A stretch of 33,959 bases of DNA from a virus. A program made the translations under genes and the position numbers. The stretch is taken from positions 1 through 33,959 of the IMG/VR virus record IMGVR_UViG_3300003690_000049; one strand, given 5' to 3'. Below are positions 4,131 through 33,735 of this stretch, piece by piece; positions within the stretch are counted from its first letter, which is position 1; every line of letters starts with the position of its first letter. The notes under the pieces were generated by a model. That model did no database searches. It had not been told where the DNA came from and worked only from the letters and a program-made list of their open reading frames with translations.

Positions 4131-7100
4131 TTACTCCATGGTTTCGCGCCGCATCCGGTCAACGGTGCTGGCGATTTTGCTGGTGTGAGACGCCGTGCCT
4201 TTATTGATCGACTTCAGCTCGCTGACCTCCTTCTCCAGATTTTCGACGTGCTTGATGAGCTGCTGAAAGGCTTTAAGCATTTCGCCACCACCACCGCCGC
4301 TACCTGCAAAATCGCGGAACGCCTGCGCCGCCGGGGCGGGCAATACGGTTTCGCTTCGGTGCAGCTCTGCCCGGTAGCCGTCAAACGGCACCGACCACAG
4401 GCCATCGGCATGACTGCCATCTAGCTGATTGGCGTAGGTTCTTCGCAGCAGGTCAGCCGCACCTGAGCCCTGCACGGTGTGCGAGCCACCCCCAGGCGTG
4501 AAGTACGTGGCCGAATCACCGTTATCTACCACCCGGTACCCGCTGCCTGATGATGACGCGGCGCTAGCACGAGAAGCCTCTGAGGCCGCCTTTGCTGCCG
4601 ATGCCGCTGACGCCGCCGCCGAGGAAATGGCCGATGAAATAGCCGACTGCAGCCCGCCGATAGCCTCACCTACGCCCAGCACGCTGCCGTTGATACTTTC
4701 CAGCCACGCCATTTGCCCTAGCTCGTTTTCAATTTGCAGCTGTTGCTGAACCAGCATTGAGTCCAGCGACTCCATTTCGCGGGCATACTGACGCTCAGCC
4801 GCTTGCAGCTGATTTTCTAGGGCCTTTAGGGACTGCTCTTCTACGCTCACTTGCGCCTCGGCGCGCTCTTCCAGCGACGCAATCACGTTGGCGGTTTGGT
4901 AGAAGTCACGCTGGTAATCCGTAAACGATGAGAACAAGCCCTCCGAGGGCTCAGATACCACCCCTAGCGCCCGCTCTAATTGCGCAGAATCACCCAGACC
5001 GCCGCTGGCCAGCGTGGACTGCAGGTAGTCTTGAGCGGCGCGGCGTGAGGCCATGCTTTCACGGCGGCGGGCATTCAGCAGCGTATCGAGCGAGTTGCTC
5101 AGCGTGTCAGCCACTGCCGCGCTTTCCTGCATCGCCTGCTGAACGGTTGAGATGTTGGCGTTGATAGAGGCGGTCGTGGCACGGTAGGCGTTTTCCAGAA
5201 TCTGCCGCTCTGCATTGACCGCCTTTTCCACCTGCTGATACGCACCCTGCACATCACCCAATGCCCAGATATTCGACTGCAATGCTTGGTTACTCGGGTC
5301 CAGTCTAGCCAGCTCGCGGCGGCGTAGCTCTGCCGTATTGCCCTGCAGAGATAACAGCTCACGCTCCAATCCGGCCCGCTCGCGGGCAATATCCGCCATG
5401 GCGCGCATGGATTCGGCGTTGTCGTCTATCGCTTCGCCTGACTCCACCGCCGCCGCCCGCTGCTCTTCCATCGCCGCGATGTACTGCGCTAGCGGCCCAT
5501 TCAGTTGCAGGATTGTTGCTAGCTGCTCTTGCCCAGCCGCGCCCATCAGCTCCAGGCTTTCGACCACGTCCCGCACGCCCTCGCGGGTGGTGGGCAGCTC
5601 GCGACCCATGCTGGCAAACGTGCTGGAAAGATCTTCGGCAAGGTGCCGCAGCTTCTCCTCTTCGGTGTAGAACGCGTCGTAGAAACTACCCAGCGAAGCG
5701 TTCAGGTTGCCGACGCCACCCATGAGCTGCGCCATGCCATCGGCGGCGCGCATAGCCCCGGCGGCGCTGGCGTCGAACTGCAAATTAAGGCGGGCGCTAT
5801 TGCTGTCGAGGAGTTGCATGGCGTTAGCGGCCTGCACCACGCGCCCGGTGATTTGCTCGGCATTCAGCCCTAGGCCGCGCAGAGACGCGGAAAAATCACC
5901 GTCGATAACATCAACGACCGCCAATGTGCGCGTGGCAAGCTGGTTAGCGATCCCGGCGGCGTCGCTGGCGTTGAGCCGCACAGCACGCACTGCCTCTGTC
6001 ATCGCGTCAAGCTCTTGTTCGCTGCCCGCCACCGCTGCCAGGGCGTTATCCATCGCGGTGATGGAGTCGAGAAATGCTGTGGCATTCTCAAATCCGCCGA
6101 ACGTCTCTTCTAGTCGTGCTGTCCCCTCGTCGGTAAAGCCCACCGCGCCAAACGCTCCACGGGAAACAACACCTGAACCATAGTCTTCAAAAACACCATG
6201 ACCGCGAGTGTTAGAATCAACTGTAGCCAGCTCGAATTTAGGGGCGGTTTTACCTACCCACGGCATGGCCGCGCTGGCGGCACCCATCAAGCCGCCGCCT
6301 GCTTGGGCGGCACCAGCGGCAGCGCTGCCCGCCCAGCCGCTATACGCGCCCGTGGCGGAACCGGCCCACCCTGCCGCGCCATAGCCAGCAGCGGCGGTAG
6401 ACGCGGCAGACCCCGCGCCCCACAGGCCGCTAACGGTATCCCAGCCGCTTTTGAGCGAGCCGATAGAGCCAAGGTTGAAGCCGCCGCCACCTTGGCCACC
6501 TACACCGGGAATACCCAGCGCACCACCCATCTGCTGCGTAAACTGCACCACGATGGGCTTTAGGGTAGCTTGGTAGGCCAGCTCGGCTAGCAGGCGTTTG
6601 AAGCCGTCTAGCAGCTGGTCGGTAAAATCATCGAACGAATCGAACGCGCCAGCGAAGGCATCGGCAAACGTTTCATCAATGCGGTTGCTGGCTTCTTCCC
6701 ATGCCCGCGCCATTTCCTGCGCTGCCGGGTCGGCATCTAGCGCCAGCTGCTGCATTTCGTCGCGCACGCCACCCACCATGCGGGCGTACTGGTCACCGTC
6801 AATTTCGCCAGCGCGGTACATCTGGTTAATTTGCGCCAGTGCTTCGCGTAGCTGCTGCGCTTTTTGGTTGTGGCTGTCGTAGGTGCTGATTAGTGATTTA
6901 GATTGCTTTTCGTAATCCTCTGCACCCGTGGCGGCGCGCTGGTACTGCTCGGCATTCCAACGCACCGCTTCGCCGTAGGCTTCTTCGCTAATAGTGCCTT
7001 CGGCTAGGGCGCGATCAAGCACCGCTAGGCGTTCGACGTATTCCGCGTAGTCGGCTAGTAGCGGGTCCATCTCCTGCTGAACACCGGCAAGGGCTTTGGC

Positions 7101-9401
7101 TTGTGCCTCGGCTGACTGCTGGGCGGCTTGGGCTTGGCGTTGCGCGGTGCGCTCGGCTTCTTCGGCAGCGCGGCGTGATTCGGCGGCGGCTTCCTGCTGG
7201 GCTTTGCGCTGGTCTTTCAGCGCTTCATCCTGCACCGACAGAAACACGCTATAGCCGCGCATGATGTTGTTCACATCATCGCCCATGCCATCTAGTGCTC
7301 GGCTAGCCGCGCCCATGGCTGAGCCACCATCACGGGTGGCGGCGATGCTTTCGCGTAGGCGGTCGTTGTATTTCTTCCACGCATCCAGGGTGGTGGCTGA
7401 GGGCGCGCCACCGTTGACGGCTTGGCCGCTATTCTCGGCACCTTGGGCCACATCGTTAAACGCTGTTTCAAGCGTTTGCAGCAGCCCGCCCAGCTCTTCT
7501 ACCGTAATGCTGCCTTCGCTGTACTCTGCCGCCCATAGGCGAATTTGACGCAGCGCGCTATCGGGAACGCCTAGTTGATCCTGCAAGCCATTCAGCAGCT
7601 CATCTAGGCTTTTCGCGCCGCTCTCTACCGCCTCAAATCCGGCATTCACTTCATCAAAAAACGCACGCGCTTCGGCACCGCTAGTGCCGTCAAAGCCAAT
7701 GCTTAAAATCTCTTCGCGGATTTTAGACAGGGCGCTACGGGTTTTTTCGACTTCCTCTTGGTAGCGGTCGCCCCACTTGATCATGGCCGCCCGCTGGCTT
7801 TCCACGCTCAGCTCTTTAAAGTCCGCAATCACTGTTTCAAGCGGGGCGTTCATATCGGTTAGCGAGCTGCTAACGTCGTCGCTGCTATCGCGGAACAGGA
7901 AAAACGCCGTAGCGGCCAGCGTGGCCACGCCAAGGGGGCCACCCACTAACGCCATTGCACCAGCCGCGCCACGGCTAACCGCCGTTAGCGTGCGCTGGGC
8001 AGCCGTGTTCGCGGCCACCGCTGCCGTGTTGGCTGTCGCGGCGGCAGTGGTGGCGGTGGTGGCCCGCGCCAGATCCACCTTGGCAGCGGATAGCGTGCGG
8101 GCACTGGCGGCGCTTTGCACTTCGGCAGCGTTCAAGGCGCGCTGGGCAGCGGCAGACTGAGTAGTTAACGCCATTTCAGTACGGCGAATTTCCGCTAACC
8201 GCGTGAGCGATTGCTGCCGCCCGGTCGCGCTAATCTGTGCTTGCAGGCGCTGGGTTTCCAGCACGCGCTCTGCGGCCATTTGCTGCTGTGTGAGCTGAAT
8301 AGAGCGCAGCTGAGAAGCCGCCTGCACCTGCGCTGCCTGCGCACGCTGTGCCGCATTCGCGGCGCTGTTCAATGCCGCGACGCGCTCAGCCTCGGCACGG
8401 CGGGCCGTGGCCAGCGCCGCCCCGGCTTCACGCTCGGCGGTAATGCCTGCTTGAATGGCTACGGCGCGGTCTGCCTGCACTTTTTTGATGCTGGCCAACG
8501 CAGAAGCGCCAAGAGCGTTTACCAGCCTTACGCCCAAAACAGTGCTTAACAACACCGCGCCATTGGCAACAGATCCCACAACTTCTTCAATGCCGCCATA
8601 GGCGGAAACTACCGTTACAGCACTTTCAGATAACGACACCAGAGAGGGCGCAAGATCTACTGCAACGGTATTAGCAAAGCCAGACGCTATTGCATTTAAA
8701 TTGTTTAATGCCTGATTGGCCTCTTTAAGGCTCTCAATATCAGACTGAGAAACAGTAATTCCAAGTTGCTCAGCTAATAGAATTTGCTGTCGTAGAGCCT
8801 CAGCATTGTCATCTAAGAGGGGTATTAGCAGGCTGGCATCATTAGCCAGCGACTCCATGAAAAAGATTTTTTCGCCCTGAGTGGCAACGTCATCAAGAGC
8901 CTTGCCAATAGCCAGCAGCTGCTGGTCTGGGCTCATGCCCATTAGCTCATCAATGTTGAGGGTCAGGCGCTCAAAAAGGTCAGCAGCCTCACCCCCGCCA
9001 GTCGCGACAAAATCACCGATTTTTTCTGATACATCTTTGAAGATGTCGCCCATCTTCCCAGCGCCAAGGTTGACGCTTTGAGCTGCAAATTCCCACTGCT
9101 GCAGAGTTTGCAAGCTAACGCCAATGGATCGAGAAAGAGCATCTTGCTCGGCAATATTGCGGGTTTGGCTAATAGCCATAGTGGCCATAGCAGCCGCTGA
9201 AGCAGCAGTAAACGTAGCAAGGCGCTGAGCATGCACACCAACGCTTTCGTAGCTTGACGCCATTTCCTCACTTTGCCGCTGGGCGCGTTGCATTTCCTGC
9301 GTTAATTCTGCGTTGGCCTGCTCTAAATCACGGGTGGCCTTTACGCCACTAGAACTGTCGCCCTTAATAACAAACTCAGTGGTGTATTGCTTTGACGACA
9401 T
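4131..9401 (-). CDS. Tail tape measure protein (lambda gpH-like)
   Basis: 1756-residue protein, the longest in the window. It sets tail length and is threaded through the tail tube. The N-terminal half is helical and Ala/Gln-rich with long coiled coils (about residues 300-470), then a hydrophobic glycine/alanine segment (GAMALVGGPLGVATLAATAFFLF, near 480-505), more coiled coil at 700-900, and a C-terminal lambda-type region with many Ala-Ser repeats. With the usual 0.15 nm per residue the tail would be about 260 nm (inference). GAGGT precedes the ATG by about 9 nt. A terminator at 9428-9450 separates it from the upstream gene, so it needs read-through or another promoter. Confidence 0.93.
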   Translation of the reverse strand: MSSKQYTTEFVIKGDSSSGVKATRDLEQANAELTQEMQRAQRQSEEMASSYESVGVHAQRLATFTAASAAAMATMAISQTRNIAEQDALSRSIGVSLQTLQQWEFAAQSVNLGAGKMGDIFKDVSEKIGDFVATGGGEAADLFERLTLNIDELMGMSPDQQLLAIGKALDDVATQGEKIFFMESLANDASLLIPLLDDNAEALRQQILLAEQLGITVSQSDIESLKEANQALNNLNAIASGFANTVAVDLAPSLVSLSESAVTVVSAYGGIEEVVGSVANGAVLLSTVLGVRLVNALGASALASIKKVQADRAVAIQAGITAEREAGAALATARRAEAERVAALNSAANAAQRAQAAQVQAASQLRSIQLTQQQMAAERVLETQRLQAQISATGRQQSLTRLAEIRRTEMALTTQSAAAQRALNAAEVQSAASARTLSAAKVDLARATTATTAAATANTAAVAANTAAQRTLTAVSRGAAGAMALVGGPLGVATLAATAFFLFRDSSDDVSSSLTDMNAPLETVIADFKELSVESQRAAMIKWGDRYQEEVEKTRSALSKIREEILSIGFDGTSGAEARAFFDEVNAGFEAVESGAKSLDELLNGLQDQLGVPDSALRQIRLWAAEYSEGSITVEELGGLLQTLETAFNDVAQGAENSGQAVNGGAPSATTLDAWKKYNDRLRESIAATRDGGSAMGAASRALDGMGDDVNNIMRGYSVFLSVQDEALKDQRKAQQEAAAESRRAAEEAERTAQRQAQAAQQSAEAQAKALAGVQQEMDPLLADYAEYVERLAVLDRALAEGTISEEAYGEAVRWNAEQYQRAATGAEDYEKQSKSLISTYDSHNQKAQQLREALAQINQMYRAGEIDGDQYARMVGGVRDEMQQLALDADPAAQEMARAWEEASNRIDETFADAFAGAFDSFDDFTDQLLDGFKRLLAELAYQATLKPIVVQFTQQMGGALGIPGVGGQGGGGFNLGSIGSLKSGWDTVSGLWGAGSAASTAAAGYGAAGWAGSATGAYSGWAGSAAAGAAQAGGGLMGAASAAMPWVGKTAPKFELATVDSNTRGHGVFEDYGSGVVSRGAFGAVGFTDEGTARLEETFGGFENATAFLDSITAMDNALAAVAGSEQELDAMTEAVRAVRLNASDAAGIANQLATRTLAVVDVIDGDFSASLRGLGLNAEQITGRVVQAANAMQLLDSNSARLNLQFDASAAGAMRAADGMAQLMGGVGNLNASLGSFYDAFYTEEEKLRHLAEDLSSTFASMGRELPTTREGVRDVVESLELMGAAGQEQLATILQLNGPLAQYIAAMEEQRAAAVESGEAIDDNAESMRAMADIARERAGLERELLSLQGNTAELRRRELARLDPSNQALQSNIWALGDVQGAYQQVEKAVNAERQILENAYRATTASINANISTVQQAMQESAAVADTLSNSLDTLLNARRRESMASRRAAQDYLQSTLASGGLGDSAQLERALGVVSEPSEGLFSSFTDYQRDFYQTANVIASLEERAEAQVSVEEQSLKALENQLQAAERQYAREMESLDSMLVQQQLQIENELGQMAWLESINGSVLGVGEAIGGLQSAISSAISSAAASAASAAKAASEASRASAASSSGSGYRVVDNGDSATYFTPGGGSHTVQGSGAADLLRRTYANQLDGSHADGLWSVPFDGYRAELHRSETVLPAPAAQAFRDFAGSGGGGGEMLKAFQQLIKHVENLEKEVSELKSINKGTASHTSKIASTVDRMRRETME

Positions 9402-27996: not shown

Positions 27997-28629
27997 ATGC
28001 AAGAGAACATCACAGGCCAACGCCTACGCGAACTCAGAGCGCGGCGCGGCATGAAAGCCGTCGATTTAGCCAAAGCGCTAGGCATTCAGCGCACCCGCGT
28101 TAGCAACTGGGAAACCGGCATACGCAACCCCCAGCGTGAAGAGCTGGTAAAGCTGGCCAGCGTGCTAGATGTAAGCCCCGCCTACCTGATCGGCTGGATT
28201 AACGAAGAGATTTACTCCACCCACCAGCCCATAGAACGCAACAGCCTAACGCTCAACAACGGCGAAACCGTCACGCTAGAAAGCGCCACCAGCGCCCACG
28301 CCTATAGCGAGCAATTTCTAAACGCCCGCGACCTAAAGGCTCAGCAGCTCATGGCCCTAACGGTAGACGACGACGCCATGAACGACGTGATATGCAAAGG
28401 CGACACCGTGCTAGTGGATATGCAGCGCAAACGCAGCGGCGGGCGCGACCTCTTCGCCATGCTAGTGAACGGCAGTATATGGATGCGGTGGGTACGGCCT
28501 GAGCTAAACGGCACGTTTACCGTCAGCGCCGAAAACAGCACCCAATACCCCGACCAAACGCTAACCGAAAAGCAGCTAGAAGCACTTGATATTATTGGAA
28601 GAATCACACGAATAGAGCGCGACCGCTAA
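27997..28629 (+). CDS. CI-like repressor with inactivated S24 peptidase domain
   Basis: 210 residues. HTH_3 domain at 8-65 (LRELRARRGMKAVDLAKALG, IQRTRVSNWETGIRNPQREEL, VLDVSPAYLIGW). C-terminal LexA/CI-type domain at 115-205 (VDDDAMNDVICKGDTVLVD, ENSTQYPDQTL, IIGRITRI). In active S24 proteins the GDSM motif carries the nucleophilic Ser and the strand yvKrl carries the Lys; here these are Ala127 (DDDAM) and Arg164 (WMRW). No Ala-Gly cleavage pair is evident in the linker. The fold can still dimerise, but RecA-stimulated self-cleavage is not expected. Divergent from the Cro-like gene. Confidence 0.85.
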   Translation: MQENITGQRLRELRARRGMKAVDLAKALGIQRTRVSNWETGIRNPQREELVKLASVLDVSPAYLIGWINEEIYSTHQPIERNSLTLNNGETVTLESATSAHAYSEQFLNARDLKAQQLMALTVDDDAMNDVICKGDTVLVDMQRKRSGGRDLFAMLVNGSIWMRWVRPELNGTFTVSAENSTQYPDQTLTEKQLEALDIIGRITRIERDR

Positions 28630-30165: not shown

Positions 30166-31323
30166 ATGTTTTTCAAAAGCGCCAACGTCTACCGCTTACA
30201 CGACGCCCCCGAACACACCGCCGAAACCCTCAACGACATGCTAAAAGGCGATGCCGCTAAACCGCTGGGCAATGCCGACGCCAAGCGCCACGGCTGGACA
30301 CCGCCCGCCAGCCGCAACGCAGAGCTATTCATGCACGAAGTGCAGGGCCACCGCCTGTTTAGCATGCTCAAACAAGAGCGCCTACTACCCGGCAGCGTGA
30401 TTAAAGACGCGGTAGAGGAACAGGTAGAAGCGCTAGAAGAGGAGGAAGGCCGCTTTCTCACGCGCAAAGAAAAGACCGCGATCAAAGAACAGGTAACAGA
30501 AGCCCTACTGCCCCGCGCCTTTGTTAAAACCACCAAAGTCTTTGCATGGTGGGACGTAAAGCGCGGGCGCATCACCGTCAACAGCGCCAGCCGCTCGGTG
30601 TGCGAGGATCTATTAGACCTGCTACGCGAAACCCTGGGCAGCCTCAAAGCCACCCCGCACAGCACCCAAACGCTACCCGTACGCGCCATGACCACATGGC
30701 TAAACGACAAACCCAGCCGCCCCGCCAACCTAGCGCTTGGCGACGTGATCACCCTCAAAGATAAAGGCGATGACGGCGTATGGCGTGGCCGTCAGATCGA
30801 CCCGGACAGCGACGAAATACAGCAAATGCTTGAAACCGGACGGCAAGCGGTAGAACTGGCGATGACCGTCAACGACAACGTTTCATTCACCCTCAACGAC
30901 GGCCTAACCCTCAAAAGCCTGCGCTTTGGTGACAAGCTCATAGAAGAAGCGGATGCCGCCGACGACGGCGACGACGCCACCGCCCGCCTAGAAACCGACT
31001 TCTACCTAATGGCCAACGCCCTAGCCGAAGCGATCGACAGCCTAACCGCCATGATGGGCGGCGAAACCGAGCGCGCCGCTCCCGTATCGCTCGATGAACC
31101 CGGCACCGGCACCCACCCCGGCGAACAGATCGGCGGCTTTGAGAACGGCTTTGAACAAGAAGAGCCGTTATTGAAAGAGGCCATCGAGCTAGCCAAAACG
31201 AACAACTGTGACACGTTCACGGTTACGAAATTGCAGCGGCATTTCAAAATTGCCTACGACCGTGCCCAGCAGCTGCAAGCGCGACTAGAAAACGCCAACC
31301 CTCGCGGGCTACCTACCCCATGA
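30166..31323 (+). CDS. rdgC: RdgC with C-terminal FtsK-gamma-like winged helix
   Basis: 385 residues; E. coli RdgC has 303. Residues 1-300 are clear RdgC: FFKSANVYRL, GWTPPASRNAE, LPGSVIKDAVEEQVEALE, LLPRAFVKTTKVFAWWD, LDLLRETLGSLKATP, DFYLMANALAEAI. RdgC forms a DNA-encircling ring dimer and restrains RecA. Residues about 305-332 are an acidic/Gly linker, and 333-381 (EPLLKEAIELAKTNN, FTVTKLQRHFKIAYDRAQQL) match the gamma domain of FtsK, compare DPLFDQAV and VQRQFRIGYNRAAR, which reads KOPS sequences. So a RecA regulator seems fused to a sequence-reading wHTH. RBS AGGAAG upstream; overlaps the next ATG. Confidence 0.9.
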   Translation: MFFKSANVYRLHDAPEHTAETLNDMLKGDAAKPLGNADAKRHGWTPPASRNAELFMHEVQGHRLFSMLKQERLLPGSVIKDAVEEQVEALEEEEGRFLTRKEKTAIKEQVTEALLPRAFVKTTKVFAWWDVKRGRITVNSASRSVCEDLLDLLRETLGSLKATPHSTQTLPVRAMTTWLNDKPSRPANLALGDVITLKDKGDDGVWRGRQIDPDSDEIQQMLETGRQAVELAMTVNDNVSFTLNDGLTLKSLRFGDKLIEEADAADDGDDATARLETDFYLMANALAEAIDSLTAMMGGETERAAPVSLDEPGTGTHPGEQIGGFENGFEQEEPLLKEAIELAKTNNCDTFTVTKLQRHFKIAYDRAQQLQARLENANPRGLPTP

Positions 31324-32213: not shown

Positions 32214-32638
32214 GCGCCACATTCTGCACGTCCGAAAATCGAACGCACAAAAGCGACGACGAAAAACGTTGCCACCTAGCAGCACCAACCCAAGCCATTG
32301 ATTTTAAAAGGTGGCACGAAATTCGTGCTACCGAAAAACAGACGTATCTTATTGATATTAAGAGATTGTCCGAAATCCGGACAAACGCATCAATAGGCTA
32401 TGTTACTGATTTAATTAGATTGGACGTATTGCGTCCAAACAAACTATCGATGCAACCCATTGATAATAAAAGCGAGTCCGAAATTCGGACTCGCTTCAAA
32501 ACACCCTTACGCCAACGTAATGCACCATTGACCCCAACCCGCCCTAGCGCTACTCTGCCCGAAGTCGCTGCAAAATCAGCGACCGGGTTTAGCAGCTCAA
32601 CGGACATTGGCGCACAAGCGCCCCCAATCATCGTGTAG
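32210..32638 (+). CDS. Ash-like leader ORF carrying a hairpin repeat array
   Basis: 142 residues. ATGA overlap at the start. Residues about 30-95 consist of four 18-residue units of form IDxKRxxEIR (DFKRWHEIRA, DIKRLSEIRT, DLIRLDVLRP, DNKSESEIRT), each corresponding to one 54-bp DNA unit. The C-terminus FSSSTDIGAQAPPIIV resembles the ends of Ash/Icd-type ORFs that precede c4 RNAs in enterobacterial prophages. The first codons and the central part are much more AT-rich than neighbours. Because the DNA structure is so regular, the protein may be a by-product of, or a passenger on, a structured RNA. Function unknown. Confidence 0.5.
   Translation: MSATFCTSENRTHKSDDEKRCHLAAPTQAIDFKRWHEIRATEKQTYLIDIKRLSEIRTNASIGYVTDLIRLDVLRPNKLSMQPIDNKSESEIRTRFKTPLRQRNAPLTPTRPSATLPEVAAKSATGFSSSTDIGAQAPPIIV
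32297..32496 (+). repeat. 54-bp-period array of four covarying hairpins
   Basis: Units begin at 32297, 32351, 32405 and 32459, spacing exactly 54. Each begins with an AT-rich box (ATTGATTTTAAAAG, ATTGATATTAAGAG, ACTGATTTAATTAG, ATTGATAATAAAAG) followed by a hairpin: 32310-32332 (GGTGGCACGAA/TTCGTGCTACC), 32366-32384 (TTGTCCG/CGGACAA), 32420-32438 (TTGGACG/CGTCCAA), 32470-32496 (AAGCGAGTCCGAA/TTCGGACTCGCTT). Stem sequences differ between units but pairing is kept. On the minus strand, units 1 and 4 contain matches to the IHF consensus WATCAANNNNTTR (32291-32303, 32453-32465). Confidence 0.9.
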
Positions 32639-32649
32639 GCGCTATTTTT

Positions 32650-32750
32650 GTGCCCGCGTGATGCACTATGGCGGGCCGTGCGCGGGGCGCTTCGGCGCGC
32701 CGGGTTTCCAATGTCCCCGGTCTGCTAACCCGCGTACGGTTCGCCTCCAT
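32650..32750 (+). ncRNA. c4-type antisense RNA (P1/P7 immI-like), approximate limits
   Basis: Leader of the ORF6N gene. It folds into CCCGC...GCGGG (32653-32675), GCGC-TTCG-GCGC with a C(UUCG)G tetraloop (32687-32698) and CCGGG...CCCGG (32700-32720). TGGCGGGCCGTGCG and GGTCTGCTAACCCGCGTACGG correspond to what I remember of c4 RNAs. Two segments are complementary to sites before the antirepressor: CTGCTAA (32722) to TTAGCAG (32754), and GTTCGCCT (32739) to AGGCGAAC (32765). In P1, c4 blocks translation of icd/ant. Ends are not determined. Confidence 0.65.
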
Positions 32751-32753
32751 CGT

Positions 32754-32797
32754 TTAGCAGCGGTAGGCGAACTCCAACAGACTTGGAGAATCGCAAC
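32754..32797 (+). promoter_or_regulatory. Antirepressor translation control region
   Basis: Contains TTAGCAG (32754-32760) and AGGCGAAC (32765-32772), complementary to the c4-like RNA, then a hairpin CTCCAA-CAGAC-TTGGAG (32772-32788) whose 3' arm is the ribosome binding site GGAG, 9 nt before ATG 32798. Translation of the antirepressor is likely controlled by exposure of this arm. Confidence 0.6.
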
Positions 32798-33580
32798 ATG
32801 AAAACACCCACCATTTCAGTTTCTGGCGTTACCCTTCCCTATATCGAGTATCAGCAGCAGCCTGTTGTCACTTTTGCCATGATCGACGGCGTACATTCAA
32901 AGTCTAAAGCAACAGCACGGCGCTCTTTTCAGCGCAACAAAAAGCATTTTATTGAGGGTGAAGACTTCTATGCCCTTGATTCTGAAAGGTTGGGACAAAT
33001 TGTCACTACCTATCCTGACCTGTTTCCGGCGGCTACTACACGCCTAACGCTCTTCACCGAAACCGGCTACCTCATGTTGGTCAAATCGTTTACCGACGAC
33101 CTCGCTTGGCAAGTGCAGCGCCAGCTCGTCAAAAGCTATTTCCGCGTAAAAGGGGCGATGCAGCCCACCGCCGCCGAACCCATCCCCGCGCCCATCGACC
33201 ACCGCCAGCGGGAACAGCTTACCAACGCCGCTAACGCCGTGTTTCGCAATTTCGGCGGCATGCGCCAAAGCGCCACCGGCTGGTTTTATAACGGCGTACG
33301 CACCGACTACTGCCTAAAACGCATCGAAGATCTAAGCCAAGACGACTTCCCGGCAGTCATGAACCGCCTACAAGCCCTACGTAACAACGTGCGCCAATAC
33401 GAAGATTTCCGGCACGATATCCAGCAGTCGTTTTTTAAAGAGGTCGTCGGCGAAGGCCACCCGTACACGGCCTGGGTCAGCAAGCTAGCCGGTGGCCAAC
33501 ACCACATCGGTAAGCGCCCAGACTGGAAAGCGATAGCCAAACAAGTGCTAATCCACAACGGTTTACTCACCAAACAGTAA
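32798..33580 (+). CDS. ORF6N-domain protein, candidate antirepressor (Ant-like)
   Basis: 260 residues from ATG 32798; a TTG five codons earlier lies in the ribosome site and is not used. ORF6N domain at about 8-110: LPYIEYQQQPVVTFAMIDGVH, TARRSFQRNKKHFIEGEDFYAL, TLFTETGYLMLVKSFTDDLAWQVQRQLVKSYFRV. A C-terminal domain (QREQLTNAANAVF, LSQDDFPAVMNRLQALR) resembles antirepressor C-terminal parts. With the c4-like leader this reproduces the P1 c4-ant arrangement: protein made when c4 repression fails inactivates the repressor. Codon use returns to the phage norm here. Followed by a terminator. Confidence 0.8.
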   Translation: MKTPTISVSGVTLPYIEYQQQPVVTFAMIDGVHSKSKATARRSFQRNKKHFIEGEDFYALDSERLGQIVTTYPDLFPAATTRLTLFTETGYLMLVKSFTDDLAWQVQRQLVKSYFRVKGAMQPTAAEPIPAPIDHRQREQLTNAANAVFRNFGGMRQSATGWFYNGVRTDYCLKRIEDLSQDDFPAVMNRLQALRNNVRQYEDFRHDIQQSFFKEVVGEGHPYTAWVSKLAGGQHHIGKRPDWKAIAKQVLIHNGLLTKQ

Positions 33581-33706: not shown

Positions 33707-33735
33707 TTGCAATATAGCTCCATTGGAGCTATATT
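33707..33735 (+). promoter_or_regulatory. Promoter with a 25-bp palindromic operator in its spacer
   Basis: TTGCAA (33707-33712), 17 bp, TATATT (33730-33735) is a good sigma70 promoter. A palindrome with 12-bp arms, AATATAGCTCCA / TGGAGCTATATT, around one central T spans 33711-33735, filling the spacer and -10 box. A strong repressor operator is the simplest reading. Transcribes the gene at 33787. Confidence 0.75.

Follow-up and report, generated by a model that had tools for sequence, protein, structure and literature searches.

The question raised by this locus is whether a short antisense RNA and the antirepressor gene (ant) directly downstream of it form a switch of the kind known from the immI operons of P1 and P7, and which segments of the RNA would pair with which sites on the message. 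The window, which comprises the whole 33,959-base virus record IMGVR_UViG_3300003690_000049, carries the C4-ant locus towards its right end. The phage is temperate, with an integrase gene on the minus strand, and has terminase and portal genes of lambda type as well as a capsid gene; a lambda-like siphophage had been proposed in an earlier note made from the sequence alone. Also encoded is a repressor of CI type carrying an S24 peptidase, the presumed partner of the Ant protein. The positions of all features of the locus are given in Table 1. The phage additionally carries an RdgC-like protein gene on the plus strand (window 30166-31323; PF04381, E 4.1e-84), while an ORF of 1756 aa without a Pfam match is found on the minus strand in the structural region (window 4131-9401).

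Table 1. Positions in the window of the features of the C4-ant locus and of the candidate repressor gene
Feature	Position	Strand	Basis
CI-type repressor with S24 peptidase, presumed Ant partner	27997..28629	+	Pfam/PHROG matches; interaction presumed
Promoter-like TTGACC, 17 nt, TACTCT	32528..32556	+	sequence; TTGAC and TAGCGCTACTCT block common to all 8 relatives
c4-a1b1 element	32550..32603	+	Rfam score below cut-off; includes a1
IsrK-like leader RNA with 5' hairpin	32564..32649	+	Rfam isrK score below cut-off
a1, TTAGCAG, complementary to a'	32589..32595	+	shuffles; compensatory changes in L006-L008 and family
b1, GGACATTGG, 9-nt perfect match to apical loop b'	32602..32610	+	shuffles; family covariation
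Terminator-like AGCGCC...GGCGCT then ATTTTT	32617..32649	+	sequence; same element in relatives
46-codon ORF across C4, ends ATGA on ant start; probably no gene	32661..32801	+	
C4 antisense RNA	32664..32751	+	Rfam RF01695; fold
b', apical loop TTTCCAATGTCC of C4	32705..32716	+	P1 b' position; covaries with b1 and b2
a', CTGCTAA, unpaired in C4 fold	32722..32728	+	P1 a' position; covaries with a1 and a2
C4 basal stem 3' strand GTTCGCCT, alternative partner of 32765-32772	32739..32746	+	fold, shuffles; counterpart covaries in family
a2, TTAGCAG, target of a'	32754..32760	+	P1-style position, shuffles, relatives, family covariation
AGGCGAAC, pairs with C4 3' strand in alternative hairpin, a2 in its loop	32765..32772	+	fold, shuffles; same GGCGAAC in PAJU2
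Hairpin CTCCAA 32772-32777 / TTGGAG 32783-32788, hides Shine-Dalgarno	32772..32788	+	fold; weak family-wide signal
b2, GAC.TTGGAGA including ant Shine-Dalgarno; b' pairing with one bulged base	32780..32789	+	
ant, ORF6N-domain antirepressor (predicted), 260 aa, ATG at 32798	32798..33580	+	Pfam, PHROG, relatives L002-L008

The C4 RNA and the ant gene

An RNA of the C4 family is expected to be a stable, processed molecule of about 77 nt which represses in trans. The C4-like RNA with a UUCG hairpin described in the earlier note was recovered in a covariance-model search as a member of RF01695, with a score of 67.9 bits against a curated cut-off of 45 (E 2.5e-11), while the same model gives 68.8 bits in P1, 69.0 bits in Gifsy-1 and 69.6 bits in PAJU2. 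Its fold (-52.4 kcal/mol, z -5.2) is that of the family, comprising a long basal stem, the UUCG hairpin and another, large-looped hairpin. In the P1 record, a1, b1, a2 and b2 are annotated, and the positions of a' and b' were read from its sequence as a template for the window; in the P1 C4, an unpaired CTGTCAA represents a' and the apical loop contains b', TCACTAAC, with b2 at the Shine-Dalgarno position before icd. Segments occupying the P1 positions of a' and b' are present in the C4 of the window, with complementary sites downstream, a'/a2 extending over 7 nt and b'/b2 being interrupted by a bulge, and a second target pair, a1 and b1, is found upstream of C4 with perfect matches of 7 and 9 nt. 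The 7-nt complementarity which the earlier note had observed between CTGCTAA and TTAGCAG is thus the real a'/a2 contact, and the hairpin which it had proposed to hide the ribosome site was also found, in the predicted fold, over the Shine-Dalgarno sequence.

The ant product can be predicted to be an antirepressor, as previously suggested, from its ORF6N domain (PF10543, 53.5 bits against a cut-off of 27.8, E 3.1e-14) and from its best PHROG, the anti-repressor family phrog_4608 (E 3.7e-40). In P1 immI, icd lies between C4 and ant and its Shine-Dalgarno sequence serves as b2. The end of C4 and the start of ant are here separated by 46 nt, and the 46-codon ORF overlapping both, which had gone unmentioned, is lost or shifted in the relatives L006-L008, while the reading frames over C4 in the family are open no more than expected. 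This ORF was therefore rejected as a counterpart of Icd or orf45, and the claim that icd is missing stands, as no conserved Icd-like gene is predicted between C4 and ant.

The promoter of the P1 immI operon is under the control of the phage repressor, with an operator before c4. A search of the window for operators of the repressor gave two palindromes, each unrepeated elsewhere in the window. A perfect palindrome, TTGGACGTATTGCGTCCAA, is located at 32420-32438, 5' of the leader promoter, and has no further good copy in the window and none near cI, while the near-perfect, operator-like ATATAGCTCCATTGGAGCTATAT occurs in single copy at 33712-33734, directly 3' of ant. Exact LexA boxes (CTGT-N8-ACAG) are absent from the window.

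Pairing sites in the window, its relatives and the family

Chance expectations were derived from dinucleotide shuffles of the C4 flanks. The observed a2 match alone was reached by 2.8% of the shuffles and is weak, while a1 and a2 together were reached by 0.065% and the 9-nt b1 match by 0.12%. The b2 match, a run of 5 nt, was reached by 44% of the shuffles and is not significant by itself in the window; the b'/b2 duplex has an energy of -10.7 kcal/mol there, against a family swap mean of -7.5 kcal/mol. It is the comparative evidence, and not the window alone, that settles the pairing sites, and the sequences of the relatives support b2.

Seven close relatives (L002-L008) with 85-95% identity were found in viral contigs, and all of them have C4 before ant. 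The C4 fold, a1, a', a2, b1 and b' are intact in L002-L005. Inspection of the alignment by eye showed concerted changes of a1, a' and a2 in L007 and L008, where CTGCTAA/TTAGCAG is replaced by CTTCCAA/TTGGAAG, as well as in L006, where it is replaced by TTCTCAC/GTGAGAA. In L006 and L007, b2 and the loop of the same locus pair with no bulge, and in L008, with all three a segments altered, b2 is as in the window. None of 33 more distant ORF6N loci that were scanned has a C4 above the cut-off, and the gene and the RNA are thus separable modules.

A scan with a C4 core pattern gave 32 viral and at least 119 genome stretches, representing at least 144 distinct contexts. Among the matches listed, the variable a' base is Watson-Crick complementary to a2 in all 125 loci with a recognisable a2 site, and to a1 in 124 of the 128 with a recognisable a1 site. 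The first covariation test picked the best match; when it was repeated at fixed positions the result held, with loop bases N1-N7 matching b2 at 4.58 of the 7 positions against 2.39 when permuted (sd 0.15), and b1 at 4.87 of the 7 against 2.36 (sd 0.17), values reached in 0 of 1000 permutations in either case. The family loci are related and thus not independent, and retaining one example per distinct loop leaves the result no weaker. Strong covariation of a1/a'/a2 and of b1/b'/b2 is thus seen across about 140 loci.

The leader RNA and the proposed switch

The unit does not start at 32640, where it had been placed, but near 32528, and a promoter-like site, a1, b1 and a terminator had been missed. 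Conservation among the relatives begins at the promoter-like TTGAC, while the DNA 5' of it diverges. The terminator-like element, AGCGCC...GGCGCTATTTTT, ends at 32649. Neither the leader promoter nor the leader terminator was listed by a generic promoter/terminator scan of the window, the latter because its 15-nt loop exceeds the limits of the scan. A member of the isrK family would be a short RNA acting in trans and binding Hfq. The leader scores 40.1 bits with the isrK model (RF01394), below the cut-off of 50, and is thus named IsrK-like rather than filed as a member, while the c4-a1b1 element reaches 34.7 bits against a cut-off of 46.7. At the corresponding position in L007 and L008 both models score above their cut-offs, with 55.0 and 56.6 bits for isrK. 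For the pairing segment of C4, a1b1 is the stronger binding partner in the window (-31.3 kcal/mol, vs -20.6 kcal/mol for a2b2), as it is in 52 of 59 loci; in whole-molecule cofolding, which is uninformative on loop-loop contacts, each RNA folded on itself.

We consider it very probable that the locus encodes a C4-type antisense switch, in which C4 represses ant in trans through b2 and a2. One promoter near 32528-32556 would give rise to a short IsrK-like leader RNA, mostly terminated near 32649, while a fraction of the transcripts would read through the terminator and across C4 into ant. The C4 RNA would be excised from the long transcript, presumably as in the known case by RNase P, which is known to process phage C4 RNA (PMC11143913). 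In the lysogen, C4 would pair in trans with the ant mRNA, its apical loop b' on the Shine-Dalgarno sequence (b2) and a' on a2, with the result that no Ant would be made and the CI-type repressor, the putative target of Ant, would stay active. C4 would in this manner act on ant directly, and not via icd. The leader would present the target once more, as a1 and b1 and with a better match, and there C4 would probably favour the termination of new transcripts, in the manner of the CI RNA of phage P4, described as acting by transcription termination at seqA (PMC4825925), and free short leader RNA would serve as a decoy, releasing ant. That the leader acts as both attenuation site and decoy for C4 appears somewhat more plausible than its opposite. 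Counted against the C4 switch are the bulge in b2 in the window, the leader scores below both Rfam cut-offs and the absence of promoter and terminator from the generic scan.

The P1/P7-type C4-ant switch put forward in the earlier note is supported by the Rfam score, the P1-style sites and the covariation, while its IsrK-like upstream half had been overlooked; the core observation was sound, and part of the anatomy was not. The locus shares with P1/P7 c4-icd-ant the C4 family, the places of a' and b', the sites a1 and b1 before and a2 and b2 after C4, and the antirepressor downstream. In P1, however, b2 is the Shine-Dalgarno sequence of icd, which precedes ant1, whereas in the present phage it is that of ant, icd is absent and Ant has an ORF6N domain. 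The P4 CI RNA with seqA and seqC is likewise a processed antisense RNA with targets before and after its own gene (PMC4825925), but acts by transcription termination on replication genes, and is likened here by description and not by sequence.

Gifsy-1, rival explanations and the range of C4

The isrK-orf45-anrP locus of Gifsy-1 has an IsrK-like leader with a terminator, a C4 above the Rfam cut-off, b2 on the antirepressor Shine-Dalgarno sequence and a small ORF ending in ATGA, as does the present phage. It differs in that orf45 is reported to be translated and required for activation (PMC4825925), whereas the overlapping ORF of the present phage is not conserved, and in its AnrP, a 188-aa protein annotated as similar to antirepressor. 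In the Gifsy-1 record (L220, 34300-34076, minus strand), orf45'/STnc1160 overlaps the C4 RNA, and STnc1160, described as a stable RNA 3' of IsrK in PMC4825925, coincides with the position of C4, although the term 'c4 RNA' is not mentioned in that paper. With the transcription start placed 106 nt before the first orf45 AUG, all of the bases of PMC4825925 that were checked agree with the record; the mutated bases map to a1 (G28 and G31) and to a' (C159 and C162), with b2 corresponding to the anrP Shine-Dalgarno sequence. With the a' mutations, translation of anrP rose from about 4 units to 484 and 926 (PMC4825925, Table 1), and their combination with the matching a1 change gave 224 and 327 units, not 4 (PMC4825925), as repression by C4 would predict, since a2 is still mismatched. 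Basal expression was raised in the a1 mutants, to 93 and 218 units (PMC4825925), which would fit attenuation at a1b1, similar to that of the P4 CI RNA at seqA, a parallel drawn by the Gifsy-1 authors themselves (PMC4825925). IsrK supplied in trans increased anrP translation 139-fold (PMC4825925), while constitutive orf45/STnc1160 RNA did not counter the IsrK-mediated growth arrest, which became more pronounced (PMC4825925). The latter result is not predicted by a simple decoy model.

From this re-reading of the Gifsy-1 data in terms of C4 and a decoy we infer, with moderate confidence, that IsrK-type leaders and c4-a1b1 elements may be one and the same built-in decoy/attenuation site for the C4 encoded directly 3', and that P1 immI, Gifsy-1 isrK-anrP and the present phage may share a single three-site circuit. 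Nothing in the literature searched reads IsrK as a C4 decoy or links P1 c4 with Salmonella IsrK, and C4 and IsrK were found named together only in a list of Rfam matches for Xylella, where the two are adjacent.

Under the model proposed for Gifsy-1, pairing between leader and C4 would fold the long transcript in cis, so that no separate antisense RNA is needed, and leader RNA supplied in trans would shift this fold and allow translation of the small overlapping ORF, to which ant is coupled. This model has the published Gifsy-1 experiments behind it, and the window does contain an ORF with an ATGA overlap, but the fate of this ORF in L006-L008 and the lack of any excess of open frames over C4 argue against it. 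Refolding in cis would furthermore not require the C4 loop to covary with the ant Shine-Dalgarno sequence, and re-pairing of a1 with a' in Gifsy-1 left repression unrestored. Refolding in cis is thus considered an unlikely explanation for the present locus. The bulged b2, the better fit of b' to b1 than to b2 and the Shine-Dalgarno sequence within a hairpin would also be compatible with a decayed, inactive C4 remnant, in which b2 has drifted and control of ant has been lost or left to the Shine-Dalgarno hairpin alone; with the C4 fold and the a1, a', a2, b1 and b' segments intact and kept in L002-L005, and with a1, a' and a2 changed together next to the same b2 in L008, such decay seems quite improbable.

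The contacts proposed in the earlier note combine a'/a2 with the 8-nt pair GTTCGCCT/AGGCGAAC as b'/b, and the crossing order of these pairs (a'-b' with a-b) was taken to indicate action in trans or alternative folds. Both pairs exist, the second being reached by 0.8% of the shuffles and having counterparts in the family and in PAJU2. It is not the b'/b site, however, because the P1 sites place b' in the apical loop of C4 and b2 on the Shine-Dalgarno sequence, and because this loop covaries with both b sites, b1 and b2. GTTCGCCT is instead the 3' strand of the C4 basal stem, and its pairing with AGGCGAAC closes a local alternative hairpin in cis, which in the predicted fold excludes the basal stem. 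Once the correct b' is used, the order is b' a' ... a2 b2 and the two pairings nest, so that the crossing-pair argument for trans action, which rested on the wrong b' assignment, falls, and we regard this set of contacts as very improbable.

The C4-type antisense switch favoured here does not appear to be special to the present phage. C4 is also located directly before an antirepressor in the Pseudomonas phage PAJU2 and in the loci L091 and L092, and directly before anrP in Gifsy-1, and this recurrence points to a known kind of switch. In PAJU2, the antirepressor starts 50 nt downstream of C4, icd is absent and the GGCGAAC alternative hairpin is present, as in the window, but its antirepressor matches phrog_245 and phrog_130 and is not of the ORF6N type. 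In L077, a 98-aa ORF and the antirepressor start share a few bases, in an arrangement like that of icd-ant. Of 58 non-redundant genes standing first after C4, 21 code for DUF6124 and ten for DUF3077 proteins, one for an ORF6N protein (the present window) and one for a Bro-N protein; one first gene after C4 matches an Icd-like model (NCBIfam/Pfam). The generalisation that absence of icd is the rule in the family was rejected; the first gene after C4 is short in most of 59 non-redundant loci. No tblastn matches to Ant were found in the C4 genome loci compared.

Eight Pseudomonas genomes, chosen for having C4, encode between 8 and 36 dispersed C4 RNAs each. Many of the Pseudomonas copies (G001-G008; L150, L128; L228-L247) precede small DUF6124/DUF3077 genes; the surroundings of two copies were sampled and consist of ordinary chromosomal genes (T2SS; RND pump). 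Of 20 copies fetched from one genome, 15 could be parsed, and no two of these share a loop sequence; in a best-match test, all 15 have an a' that fits both of its a sites over 6 nt or more, and b2 is matched over at least 6 nt in 12/15. The Pseudomonas copies are possibly a set of separate antisense switches outside prophages.

C4 thus appears as an RNA which changes two recognition words together with both of their target sites, and which can be attached to different genes, including those for ORF6N and other antirepressors, an Icd-like protein and, in Pseudomonas, small DUF6124/DUF3077 proteins. The shared circuit suggested above would join two lines of research, on P1 c4 and on Salmonella IsrK, and, if true, relief of repression by C4 would account for the activation of its own mRNA by the Gifsy-1 RNA, as modelled in the published work.
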